Source: Rouxiella sp. WC2420
GTDB taxonomy: Bacteria; Pseudomonadota; Gammaproteobacteria; Enterobacterales; Enterobacteriaceae
Assembly: GCF_041200025.1 (NCBI RefSeq)
Contig: NZ_CP165628.1
Location: forward strand, 2,976,001 to 3,040,000
Length of the DNA stretch: 64,000 nucleotides
Direction: 5' to 3'
Shown here piece by piece: positions 34,196 to 38,766 of the stretch (the first letter of the stretch is position 1; each line of letters starts with the position of its first letter). The notes under the pieces were generated by a model. It saw only the letters and a program-made list of their open reading frames with translations, did no database searches and was not told where the DNA came from. The translations under genes and the position numbers were made by a program.

Positions 34196-35173
34196 TCACT
34201 TATAGGGATAAAGTTCGTCGCGATCGTAAGGCTCTTTCAAATCATCTTTACGGGTCTTCAGCAGCTTGAGGATCCAGGTATATTGCTCTGGATTTGGCCC
34301 CACCAACACCTCAACCTCTTCGTTCATACGACGGGCGATAGTAACATCGTCGGCGGTGGCTAAATCGTACATCGGCGGACGCACAAAAATATCCAGCCGA
34401 TGCTCGCTGCCATTGTAAACCGGGAACAGCGGCACGATTTCGGCACGGCAGACTTTCATCAAGCGACCCACTGCCGGTAACGTAGCTTTGTAAGTGGCAA
34501 AGAAATCGACAAACTCACTGTGTTCGGCACCGTGGTCCTGATCGGGAAGATAATAGCCCCAATATCCCTGACGCACCGAGCTGATAAACGGCTTGATGCC
34601 GTCATTACGGGCATGCATGCGCCCACCGAAACGGCGTCGCACCGCGTTCCACAAATAGTCAGTGAGCGGATTCCTTTGATTATGGAACATCGCAGCCATC
34701 GGCTGACCCTCTGCGGCCAGCAGCATCGCCGGGACATCCACTGCCCAGCCGTGCGGGACCAGAAAAATAATGTTCTTCCCTTCGGCCTTAAGCTTTTCGA
34801 TGATCTCGCGGTCGTGCCAGTGCACCCGTTGCTGAATACTTTTGGTCTTACCACGAATCGCCAACTCGGCCATCATCACCATCGACTGCGGAGCTGCGGC
34901 GAACATATCATCAATGATCTCTTCACGACGCGCTTCAGATAGCTCTGGCAGACAATAAAACAGGTTGATCTGCGCCCGACGTCTGGCACCCTTGGCATAT
35001 TTGCCCACCAAACGGCCTAGTCCGCCCAATAGCGGGTCACGAAAAGAGGCGGGAAGGCACGCCAATCCTGCCATTACGCCGACACCCAGCCAAATGCCCC
35101 AATAGCGCGGATGAAAGAAGGCTTTTTGAAACTGTGGAATAAATTCCACAGTTGATTTTTTTTCTGATTGCAT
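34196..35173 (-). CDS. lpxM: Lipid A myristoyltransferase LpxM (MsbB)
   Basis: A 325-residue inner-membrane acyltransferase that adds the last secondary acyl chain (usually myristate) to Kdo2-lipid A. N-terminal membrane segment [20 protein letters not shown]; the catalytic His/Glu motif region [13 protein letters not shown]; further signature [20 protein letters not shown]. High similarity to E. coli LpxM along the whole length. It is downstream of mepM with a 129-base gap, as in E. coli. Confidence 0.97.
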
Positions 35174-35302: not shown

Positions 35303-36634
35303 TCAGATTTTTAGCTGAGGCATGACCTCACGCACGGTTGCCAGATAGTCTTTAAGGTCTTTACCGCTCAAGCCTTCTGAACGCGGCAGCTTGGCGGTAA
35401 GCGGGTTAACGGCAATATTATTGATCCATACTTCAAAATGCAGATGAGGCCCGGTGGAACGACCGGTATTGCCCGATAAACCAATGCGATCGCCACGCTT
35501 CACTTTCTGCCCCGGTTTGACCAACGCCCTGCGCAGGTGCATATAGCGGGTCATATATTGACGCCCGTGGCGAATGGCCACATAGTTACCGGCTGCTCCC
35601 CCTCCTTTCACTACCATTACTTCACCGTCGCCGACGGCCAGTACCGGCGTACCAATGGGTACCGCAAAATCTACACCGCGATGTGGGGCGATACGCCCGG
35701 TGACCGGGTTTAGACGACGCGGGTTAAAGTTTGAAGAAACGCGATACTGCTTGAGGGTCGGGAAGCGCAGGAAGCCGCGTGCGAGGCCGCTACCCGAGCG
35801 GTCGTAGAACTTGCCGTCTTCAGCACGAATGGCGTAATAATCTTTACCGCCCGTGCGCAAATGCACGCCCGAAAGTTCGCTCTGCTGGCTCTTGCCATCG
35901 AGCATTTCGCGCGACATTAAAACCGAGAACTGATCGCCTGCGCGCAGTTTTCTGAAATCCATCTGCCATTGCAGGGCCTTTACCACAGCGCCAATTTCGG
36001 CATTGGTAAGCCCGGCCTCTTTGGCGCTGCTGACAAAGCTACCGTCGAGCGTGCCTTTAAGGACCTGGTCCTGCCACTCGCCTTTCAGCGTTTCTGTCGA
36101 GGCTTTAAAACCCGTTCCGCTGCGATCGAAAGTCACCGTTTCACGACGCGACTTCTCCCAGGTTACGCGCTGGAGATCGCCGTCGTCATTCAAGGTCCAT
36201 GACAGCTGCTGGCCTATCTTCAGATTGCGCAAATCGCTGTTGCTGGATGCCAGCGCCGTGATGTCCGACATATCAATGCCGTACTGATTCAGAATGCTGC
36301 TGAGGGTATCACCGGTAGAGACCACGTATTCGTGAACACCCTTCTCGTTCTCGGTTTTATCATCGAGCTCGTCTTGCGGGATATCGGTAGTGGCTGGCGT
36401 GTCTTCGTCAATGGGTTCGCTGGCTTCAGGCAGCAGAGATCGCATCTGCTGGCTGTCGAGCATAATTTGCTTTGCTAGAGGTTTCCCCTGATATCCATCT
36501 TGATCCAATTCATAAACAACGGGTTTCCAGACGGCAACAGCAAGAGTAACGATGGTCAAAGACCCCAGCATGAGGCGATGAGGTCGAGGAAGATTGTTGA
36601 ATGCCAGAGCAATCGATCGGGCTAATAGCTGCAC
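35303..36634 (-). CDS. mepM: Murein DD-endopeptidase MepM
   Basis: A 443-residue periplasmic, membrane-anchored M23 metallopeptidase that cuts peptidoglycan cross-links during growth. An N-terminal membrane anchor (LMLGSLTIVTLAVAVW), a LysM-type domain (HEYVVSTGDTLSSILNQYGI, about residues 100-145), an OapA-like middle region, and the M23 domain with zinc ligands in PHRGVDFA and GPHLHFEVWIN. The start is GTG at 36634 with AAGGAC upstream. It lies 19 bases after znuA and is likely cotranscribed with it, as in E. coli. Confidence 0.96.
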   Translation of the reverse strand: MQLLARSIALAFNNLPRPHRLMLGSLTIVTLAVAVWKPVVYELDQDGYQGKPLAKQIMLDSQQMRSLLPEASEPIDEDTPATTDIPQDELDDKTENEKGVHEYVVSTGDTLSSILNQYGIDMSDITALASSNSDLRNLKIGQQLSWTLNDDGDLQRVTWEKSRRETVTFDRSGTGFKASTETLKGEWQDQVLKGTLDGSFVSSAKEAGLTNAEIGAVVKALQWQMDFRKLRAGDQFSVLMSREMLDGKSQQSELSGVHLRTGGKDYYAIRAEDGKFYDRSGSGLARGFLRFPTLKQYRVSSNFNPRRLNPVTGRIAPHRGVDFAVPIGTPVLAVGDGEVMVVKGGGAAGNYVAIRHGRQYMTRYMHLRRALVKPGQKVKRGDRIGLSGNTGRSTGPHLHFEVWINNIAVNPLTAKLPRSEGLSGKDLKDYLATVREVMPQLKI

Positions 36635-36653
36635 TTGTAACAGTCCTTATGGC

Positions 36654-37589
36654 TTACTTCAGGCAGCTCACGTACTGAGAAGTCAGATGTGACAGGAAGT
36701 TCACATAGCTGTCCTTGGTCAGTGCGATGCCGTTCCCTAGCAAGTCCAATGTGCCCACACGCACTTTTGCTCCCTGGGCAACGGCATTAATTACGGCCGG
36801 CCTGAACTGTGGTTCAGCAAAAACGCATTCCGCTTTCTGCTCAACCAGCTGAGTTCGAATTTGATGTAATTGCTGTGATGCAGGCGGAATTTCAGGATTG
36901 ACGGTCAAATGGCCGATTGGGGCCAACCCGTAGTGCTTTTCAAAGTAGCTATTCGCGTCTCGAAAAACAAAATATCCCTTCCCCTGAACAGGTTGCAGCA
37001 TCTTACCAAGCTTTATGTCAGTTTGTGTCAATCTGTCTTCAAACTGACGCAGGTTGGCGTCTAGTTGGTCTTTCTTTTGCGGCATTAGTTCCAATAATTT
37101 TGCGTGAATTTCCACAGCGGCTAATTTTGCCACTTCGGGTGAGAGCCATAGACGCATGTTATATTCATCACCTTGATGCCCTTTCCCAGGATCTTTATGC
37201 TTGCGAATACCCTGTTGCTGTGGGTCCCTTTCAGCTAAAAGCAGCGGCTGGACACCTGGTAGCGCCGAAATATTCACCACCCGATTTGGTGGCAGCTGTG
37301 CAACAGATTTGCTCATAAAGCGTTCCATGCCAGGACCCACCCAAACCAGTAAATCGGCACTACGCATGTGCTGGAGATCGGCGGGACGCAGGGAATAGTT
37401 TCCTGGAGAGGCGCCAGCGGGCAGTAAAACCTCGGTTGGCGTCACTCCATCGGCGATTGCGGCGGCGATAAAGCCTAGCGGGCGCACGGAGGCCAGTACG
37501 GCTGCCTGAACCTGAGCGAGTGTGCCAGCACCTAGCATTGAAACGGCAATCAGGGTACGGACTACAAAAGATTTACTAATTTTCATCAT
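36654..37589 (-). CDS. znuA: ZnuA-like periplasmic binding protein lacking all zinc ligands
   Basis: About 311 residues with a signal peptide ending near AQVQA. It aligns end to end with E. coli ZnuA (NMxLWLSPE, KGKGYFVF, HLTVNPEI, CVFAEPQFRPAV, YVSCLK), and both disulfide Cys are kept. The zinc ligands are gone: E. coli SEHDY is SPGNY (Pro62, Gly63), NMHLW is NMRLW (Arg146), VFHDA is VFRDA (Arg210). The His-rich loop is reduced to about two His (KHKDPGKGHQG). The frame is otherwise intact. znuCB, normally divergent between znuA and ruvB, are absent. Either a relic or a protein with a new ligand. The start is uncertain: ATG 37589 or 37586, with ATG 37619 possible. Confidence 0.88.
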   Translation of the reverse strand: MMKISKSFVVRTLIAVSMLGAGTLAQVQAAVLASVRPLGFIAAAIADGVTPTEVLLPAGASPGNYSLRPADLQHMRSADLLVWVGPGMERFMSKSVAQLPPNRVVNISALPGVQPLLLAERDPQQQGIRKHKDPGKGHQGDEYNMRLWLSPEVAKLAAVEIHAKLLELMPQKKDQLDANLRQFEDRLTQTDIKLGKMLQPVQGKGYFVFRDANSYFEKHYGLAPIGHLTVNPEIPPASQQLHQIRTQLVEQKAECVFAEPQFRPAVINAVAQGAKVRVGTLDLLGNGIALTKDSYVNFLSHLTSQYVSCLK

Positions 37590-37704
37590 TATTAATCTCG
37601 GAATCATGGGCTTATTCATTTTTATCGTTCTCAAGCCTGGATTCAGACTACGTATTCTTCGGGTAATAAAATAAAGTTTTTAGAGCAAATTCATAGTTAT
37701 TTTG

Positions 37705-37741
37705 AAAAAAAAGGAGAGCGGCGTAATACGCAGCTCTCCTT
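37705..37741 (-). terminator. Rho-independent terminator of ruvAB
   Basis: Nine-base stem AAGGAGAGC/GCTCTCCTT; on the minus strand it is followed by eight T. It lies 21 bases past the ruvB stop and immediately upstream of the znuA-like gene, where znuCB would sit in E. coli. Confidence 0.85.
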
Positions 37742-37761
37742 GGAGACATACTTTTTGCACT

Positions 37762-38766
37762 TTATTCTGGTCTGATCATTCCAAAATGCTTATAGGCGTG
37801 ATTGGTTGCCATTCTGCCTCGCGGCGTGCGTTGAATGAATCCCTGCTGGATCAGGAACGGTTCGATCACGTCTTCAATGGTTTCGCGCTCTTCCCCAATC
37901 GCTGCCGCAAGGTTATCAAGTCCAACCGGTCCGCCGGTAAACTTGTCGATAATTGCCAGCAACAGTTTGCGGTCCATATAATCAAAACCTTCAGCGTCGA
38001 CGTCGAGCATATCCAGCGCGCCGTTGGCGACGTCGCCGTTTATGGTGCCATCACCTTTCACTTCGGCGAAGTCTCGCACACGGCGTAGCAGGCGGTTGGC
38101 AATACGTGGCGTACCGCGCGAGCGGCGAGCAATTTGATGCGCGCCCTCTTCTGAAAGCTCCAGCCCCAGACAAGTGGCACTGCGGCCTACAATATGCTGC
38201 AAATCGGCGACCTGATAGAACTCCAAACGTTGCACGATACCAAAACGGTCACGCAGTGGAGAAGTCAGTGACCCCGCGCGCGTCGTTGCACCCACCAGCG
38301 TAAAGGGAGGTAAATCAAGCTTAATCGAACGTGCCGCCGGACCCTCGCCAATCATGATATCCAGCTGATAATCCTCCATCGCCGGATAAAGCACCTCTTC
38401 CACTACCGGTGAAAGGCGGTGGATTTCGTCGATAAACAGGACGTCATGCGGTTCGAGGTTGGTCAGCATCGCTGCCAAATCACCGGCTTTTTCCAGCACC
38501 GGGCCGGAAGTCGTGCGCAGATTAACGCCCATTTCATTGGCGACAATATTTGCCAACGTGGTTTTACCCAGCCCCGGCGGACCGAAAATCAGCAGGTGAT
38601 CCAGCGCATCGCCACGCTGTTTTGCCGCCTGAATGAAGATCTCCATCTGCGATCGCACGTGCGGTTGCCCAACATAGTCGGACAATCGTTTTGGACGGAT
38701 CGCTCTGTCGATAACTTCTTCTTCGCTGAACACTTCAGCAGAAATAAGACGGTCAGCTTCTATCAT
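37762..38766 (-). CDS. ruvB: Holliday junction branch migration ATPase RuvB
   Basis: A 334-residue AAA+ motor forming hexamers on DNA with RuvA. Walker [12 protein letters not shown], Walker [11 protein letters not shown], sensor 1 LVGATTRAG, arginine finger region [14 protein letters not shown], and a C-terminal winged-helix domain (IQRTPRGR). Eight bases after ruvA; SOS-controlled together with it. Confidence 0.98.

Follow-up and report, generated by a model that had tools for sequence, protein, structure and literature searches.

A ZnuA orthologue without its histidine ligands, transporter genes or Zur box, kept in frame ahead of mepM in Rouxiella

What keeps the gene of a zinc-import protein in frame when the residues that should hold the metal are no longer there? 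The question is raised by a reverse-strand ORF at 36654..37589 (ATG at 37589, stop at 36656-36654) of the window, as we call the whole 64,000-nucleotide stretch of the Rouxiella sp. WC2420 genome analysed here. The ORF encodes a ligand-less ZnuA orthologue of 311 residues. It runs without a stop or a frameshift, as the initial annotation of this DNA had described, and a further in-frame ATG lies upstream of its start at 37619. The NCBIfam ZnuA equivalog model gave it 421.7 bits (cut-off 268), which places it in the orthologous group and, by the same wide margin, has a curated model calling a ligand-less protein a zinc carrier, an annotation trap. The nearest solved chain was 7rcj, a ZnuA (E 2.7e-111); we take PDB entries 2osv and 7rcj to be the ZnuA, a cluster A-I substrate-binding protein, of E. 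coli and other Enterobacterales. Judged from its sequence, the window ORF is ZnuA by descent but lacks the functional hallmarks of the family.

Six Rouxiella genomes were compared, namely the window genome (G000), G060 (strain M24T3, of the same species), G001 (R. badensis DSM 100043), G002, G003 and G004 (R. silvae 213). The named relatives of the window genome were Serratia sp. M24T3 (99%), R. badensis (73%) and R. silvae (72%).

The zinc site of the window ZnuA

The ligands of E. coli ZnuA are numbered His60, His143 and His207, as in the initial annotation. Alignment with orthologues placed Gly63 (37403-37401), Arg146 (37154-37152) and Arg210 (36962-36960), all on the reverse strand, at these three positions, exactly the replacements that had been reported earlier, and Asp282 of the LDxLG motif (36746-36744, reverse strand) was found to be kept together with Asp211. 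The three histidines were intact together in 68 of the 70 ZnuA sequences examined, a set made up of the best 30 loci and 40 of the top matches listed from a family-wide search, and the exceptions were the window species and R. badensis. ZnuA of G060 carries Gly/Arg/Arg at the ligand positions, identical to G000, and that of R. badensis carries His/Ser/Gln, with the first histidine kept. The loss of three histidines from the window ZnuA is far beyond chance.

Two technical sources of the loss were considered and rejected: an assembly error, the same residues being carried by G000 and G060, and a shift of the ligands by an indel, the alignment having none beside the lost positions. In the window protein, the three residues on either side of each lost ligand position include neither His nor Cys, which argues against ligands supplied by shifted residues, and no relative was met that combines the same residues with measured zinc binding.

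The initial annotation had counted four lost ligands. Only three are lost, since the position of E. coli Glu59 holds Pro in 36 of the 70 orthologues (Glu in 33 and Gly in one), so that Pro62 of the window protein marks no ligand loss and the position is not a defining one; this fourth ligand was probably never present in this lineage. The near disappearance of the His-rich loop, also claimed, holds in that the loop is down to two histidines (131 and 138), too few for it still to be called His-rich, but it is not peculiar to the window gene, as the loop is likewise reduced in G003 and G004, whose ligands are intact. Both disulfide cysteines (Cys255 and Cys309) are in place as stated, and a signal peptide was recognised by eye. 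From these residues we infer, with good support, that the window ZnuA has lost zinc binding, and it has very probably lost its part in zinc import. Compared with the ZnuA proteins of Enterobacterales such as E. coli, it is an orthologue in the same place before mepM with both cysteines kept, but it is without the three ligand histidines, ZnuCB and a Zur box, and its loop is His-poor. Among the literature matches listed, in which subscription journals are thinly covered, there was no report of a ligand-less or orphaned ZnuA. A different departure was seen in the ZnuA of locus L026, which has Ile at the Asp282 position in a broken frame from a 49%-complete assembly.

The locus without znuCB and Zur operator

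Upstream of znuA stands a gene (37762..38766, reverse strand) that we take, from the conserved neighbourhood, to be ruvB; in relatives, znuCB stands between the two. The ruvB-znuA gap of the window measures 172 bases (37590..37761, reverse strand), whereas in G002, G003 and G004 the interval spans about 1.8-1.9 kb and holds znuB, znuC and a Zur box, and similarity to these relatives restarts just past the Zur-box position (CAAAATAAC...). The corresponding gap in R. badensis is about 430 bases and contains no znuCB; a znuB or znuC remnant was sought in it and rejected, the best match (E 1.2) being unconvincing. Six-frame ORFs, read by eye, showed a divergent ZnuC-like ORF or fragment next to znuA at 28 of the best 30 loci, the exceptions being G000 and G001.

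Among 295 sampled family genomes, ZnuA was found in 218 (E<=1e-45) and ZnuB in 231 (E<=1e-55). ZnuA without ZnuB occurred in two of the 218, G000 and G001, in a comparison of the full genome sets of both searches; for these two genomes the ZnuB scoring covered 8 of 14 and 8 of 11 first-look candidates. When every ABC-3 permease candidate was scored, G000, G060 and G001 were each found to have three permeases, all Zni- or Azt-type. A relocated znuCB was rejected, as this scoring and the ZnuB search found none elsewhere in the genome. The window ZnuA has no cognate ZnuC or ZnuB at its locus and no ZnuB at E<=1e-55. A ZnuA cut from its transporter in so few of the sampled family genomes with ZnuA amounts to a natural experiment. 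In three further genomes (G180, G190 and G308; loci L158, L159 and L160), ZnuB matched as two abutting pieces, perhaps from a broken frame or a misassembly, and ZnuA and ZnuC each matched as a single piece.

A Zur box, GTTATAATATTGC, lies between znuC and znuA in G002, G003 and G004. None is present at the aligned position in the znuA leaders of G000 and G060, and in G001 a weak alignment places GGTATAATGCCGC there, an altered box. The best remaining Zur-like match in the window gap (37663..37675, forward strand) is mismatched at 3 of 13 positions and lies off the aligned box position; 17 matches with three mismatches were found in the window where 16.8 were expected, and G060 shows four mismatches. 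This lone match is thus at chance level and is read as such, and a surviving Zur box in the G000 gap was rejected. No Zur operator was recognised for the window znuA.

An intrinsic-terminator-like hairpin lies past ruvB (37705..37739, reverse strand; GGAGAGC...GCTCTCC followed by T8), its stem forming within a 75-base fold of -21.1 kcal/mol; a consensus terminator scan called no terminator at this hairpin. Closer to znuA, a leader stem, GGCTT/AAGCC (37609..37637, reverse strand), looks similar by eye in all six Rouxiella genomes; when the G001 and G002 leaders were folded, another pairing had lower energy. Its loop carries AACGATAAAA, matching changes occur on both sides of the stem in G004, and the stem was not seen in G028.

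Since G000 and G001 have unlike gaps, one unchanged deletion did not produce both; a single loss with later erosion and two separate losses are both possible histories. The trees disagree and give no decision between one shared loss and two. Nineteen genes grouped G001 with G003/G004 (41%) as nucleotides, G000 with G001 (57%) as proteins and G000 with G003/G004 (72%) at codon positions 1 and 2. G000 and G001 were joined at 39% by six flanking genes and at 86% by znuA alone.

On the other side of znuA, 19 bases separate its stop from the GTG start of mepM (35303..36634, reverse strand), which encodes an M23 endopeptidase and is the presumed second cistron; across the seven genomes compared, this spacing stays within 19-21 bases. 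The next gene downstream (34196..35173, reverse strand) is presumably lpxM, a name taken from the conserved neighbourhood. A search for sigma-70-like promoters from 36500 to 37900 found no site where 1.5 were expected, and with no promoter recognised there the expression of znuA is presumed only. According to two reports, znuA and mepM relatives are co-transcribed under Zur in E. coli and Erwinia amylovora (PMC7705223, PMC6381278). The window pair is like the operons so described (mepM in E. coli, eagA in Erwinia amylovora, yebA in Yersinia) in gene order and tight spacing. Unlike these Zur-controlled pairs, it has lost its Zur box (altered in R. badensis), and its mepM is not expected to be zinc-responsive. 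One of these reports leaves open a promoter for mepM relatives inside znuA (PMC6381278), and such a promoter, if present, would weaken any argument from polarity.

Other zinc importers in Rouxiella

An operon of the ZniCBA type, encoding an ATPase, a permease and a substrate-binding protein, was found in all six Rouxiella genomes, its gene order being read in G000 and the other five checked against it at 88-100% identity. The ZniA-like substrate-binding protein of G000 matched PDB 8svc at E 3.4e-117, an entry given as ZniA of Klebsiella pneumoniae in its report (PMC10797113). Just upstream of the zni ATPase gene, an exact match to the Zur-box pattern TGTTATANTATAACA is present in six of six genomes. 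At up to two mismatches, the pattern gave 79 forward matches in the six genomes against 89 for the reversed control; since it is no commoner than the control at this stringency, only exact, conserved Zur sites were counted. A binding protein near ZniA, the order ATPase-permease-binding protein and the exact box match in every genome together identify the operon as ZniCBA-type, and by analogy with Klebsiella, for which zinc import and Zur regulation are reported, we infer that it would import zinc in Rouxiella.

In the same report, ZnuCBA and ZniCBA are described as functionally redundant for zinc uptake in Klebsiella pneumoniae (PMC10797113). On that account Klebsiella pneumoniae keeps both systems, whereas the window species has its ZnuABC dismantled; a close relative of the Klebsiella ZniCBA is present in the window genome, behind an exact Zur-box match. 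With a ZniCBA-type importer behind a Zur-box match in all six genomes, zinc import via ZnuABC was probably dispensable. A Znu-to-Zni swap, which is likely, would have freed mepM from zinc control.

The wider zinc inventory of the six genomes varies. Each genome retains a FUR-family gene, scoring about 60 bits, that we read as Zur, and an AztABC-like third system with Zur-like sites before it is present in five. In G000, this AztABC-like importer (L118 2890-7298; G000:C1 about 2711900-2716300) comprises two permeases, its binding-protein gene is preceded by a Zur-like palindrome, and a LysR-type gene lies upstream of it in this genome, the only one examined for that gene. No ZIP importer was found in the six Rouxiella genomes, and ZinT was found only in R. 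badensis (one of six; L157, G001:C11:1855-2391). G003 (C1:2658369-2661608) and G004 (C86:16283-19525) encode one more ZnuA-family binding protein, their fourth, accompanied by two ABC-3 permeases that match strongly. Two extra FUR-family genes lie close together in G000 (C1:1964621-1967030; L102 and L109), and the other five genomes are without them. Beside the zni operon, another exact Zur-box match (L125 2508-2522; G000 about 4193508) precedes two small ORFs (2543-2797 and 2816-2956) that by eye resemble L31B and L36B, ribosomal proteins of the zinc-free kind. A COG0523-like GTPase ORF, recognised by eye (L155 1561-2292; G000 about 2012233), has a one-mismatch Zur-like site upstream, and a transposase-like ORF on the opposite strand (L155 2285-2908) overlaps its end, as if an insertion element had trimmed it.

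Selection on the orphaned gene

Codon models of the GY94 type, with separate branch classes, were fitted to seven of nine taxa (G029 and G020 left out). Over the whole of znuA, the ligand-loss branches had an omega of 0.241 and the other branches one of 0.212, which is not different (2dlnL 0.5), and an omega of 1.0 on the ligand-loss branches was rejected (2dlnL 97); mepM, ruvB and lpxM showed no notable omega change on the same branches. The background value for Rouxiella ZnuA, 0.21, marks it as less constrained than these three modelled neighbours (0.02-0.07). When the gene was divided, omega in the ligand regions increased to 0.225 on the loss branches from a background of 0.032 (p=0.0001), whereas the remaining mature protein gave 0.118 on the loss branches versus a background of 0.165 (p=0.22), the N-lobe being most constrained (0.04 versus 0.08). 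This division (residues 60-68, 143-148 and 206-245) was picked after the changes had been seen and gave like results on three topologies; windows around residues 63, 146, 210 and 282, run on one topology, are the fairer test. Since the loss branches include time before the loss, a single neutral fraction for both parts was tested, and it was rejected with windows of 5, 8 and 12 residues (p=0.019, 0.0065 and 0.018, respectively), a result against uniform decay that, at p 0.007-0.02, is not overwhelming. No partition of ZnuA gave an estimate of omega above 1.

Within the species, znuA of G000 and G060, both ligand-less, differ by four nonsynonymous and eight synonymous codon changes, fewer nonsynonymous changes than the neutral expectation of 72% (P=0.0057). 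Six neighbour genes gave 1:50 between the same genomes, and the 4:8 of znuA departs from this ratio (Fisher p=0.004). By a hand calculation (dS 0.40 and 0.33), a neutral fraction of 0.2 predicts about 5 stops over both lineages and a fraction of 0.1 predicts 2.5, and none was seen; nor does GC3 show any sign of decay. Purifying selection on the window ZnuA quite likely continues. The dN/dS comparison of orthologues that the initial annotation proposed thus finds relaxation limited to the ligand regions and the rest of ZnuA constrained, so that its suggestion of a recent loss of constraint stands for the ligand regions and not for a wholly neutral gene, which the codon tests and the 4:8 count disfavour.

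The reading we prefer, with confidence about evenly divided for and against, is that of an orphaned, zinc-blind ZnuA outside zinc control, whose frame is kept by its leader position ahead of mepM and by selective pressure for a sound fold. Under this reading, ZniCBA was able to supply zinc and would have made ZnuABC expendable; the znuB (permease) and znuC (ATPase) genes would have been deleted, and the Zur operator at znuA deleted or decayed. With the transporter gone, the zinc site would drift, ending tight zinc binding and service to the importer. The frame would be held because znuA is the first cistron and a break in it would have a polar effect on the gene of the cell-wall endopeptidase, mepM, and the fold because a misfolded exported protein is costly; the escape of mepM from zinc control would be a by-product. 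That operon position and fold are the reason for retention may equally be right or wrong. Leader position and fold by themselves should not sustain the full constraint of a working orthologue outside the ligand regions; a retained function accounts for that constraint no less well.

A retained or new non-zinc function, such as that of a periplasmic MepM partner or the binding of a non-metal ligand in the two-Arg cleft, is the foremost competing reading, though on balance we doubt it. Constraint beyond what the leader and fold account needs, together with a possible mepM promoter inside znuA, makes a metal-free role a serious rival: off the ligand regions constraint is undiminished and in the N-lobe omega is lowest, amino-acid changes within the species fall below the neutral level, no stop has arisen in two lineages, and the tight znuA-mepM spacing is conserved. 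Slightly more tentative is the version in which a metal-free second periplasmic job, possibly with MepM, is a moonlighting role shared by intact ZnuA and unmasked by orphaning. The replacements tell against such roles, as those of G000 and G001 are unlike and hence define no common new site; omega nowhere exceeds 1, and no partner was identified. Loss of constraint and a new role, the two options offered by the initial annotation, are still the right two. It had missed the absence of znuC and znuB, the loss of the Zur operator, the other importer and the limitation of relaxation to the ligand regions. Among the roles it named (decoy, MepM partner, other ligand), the shared mepM neighbourhood is the sole suggestive pointer, and a decoy finds no support here. 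The metal site has loosened and the rest has not in both lineages, which makes the zinc-selected part separable from the part selected otherwise, and the case allows a direct test of whether ZnuA does anything besides zinc import.

A plain pseudogene in early decay, with the whole of ZnuA neutral and too young for a stop, is improbable. The joint loss of transporter, operator and ligands would fit it, as would a substitution ratio more mixed than in the neighbour genes. It also draws on 100 columns invariant in 22 intact ZnuA sequences, of which 12 are broken in G000 and 14 in G001 versus 0-4 in the intact ones (leave-one-out); the 22 comprise 19 from outside Rouxiella and G002-G004, six of 25 having been dropped (L026 for its broken frame, L027-L030 and L033 as distant). 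But the broken columns coincide between G000 and G001 in seven cases where 1.7 are expected (P=0.0001), with the same residue in two. The unchanged omega of the rest, the rejected shared neutral fraction and the count within the species likewise tell against constraint having been lost throughout the protein. A point against the preferred reading is that, for residues 206-245 by themselves, the enrichment of broken columns is modest (P=0.04 and 0.03). Less likely still, the window ZnuA would carry zinc or another metal via other residues and serve another permease such as ZniBC: Asp282, Asp211 and the two loop histidines remain and the genome has other metal permeases, but no His, Cys or indel adjoins the lost ligands, the Zur operator is gone, and those other permeases in G000 are adjoined by substrate-binding genes of their own.
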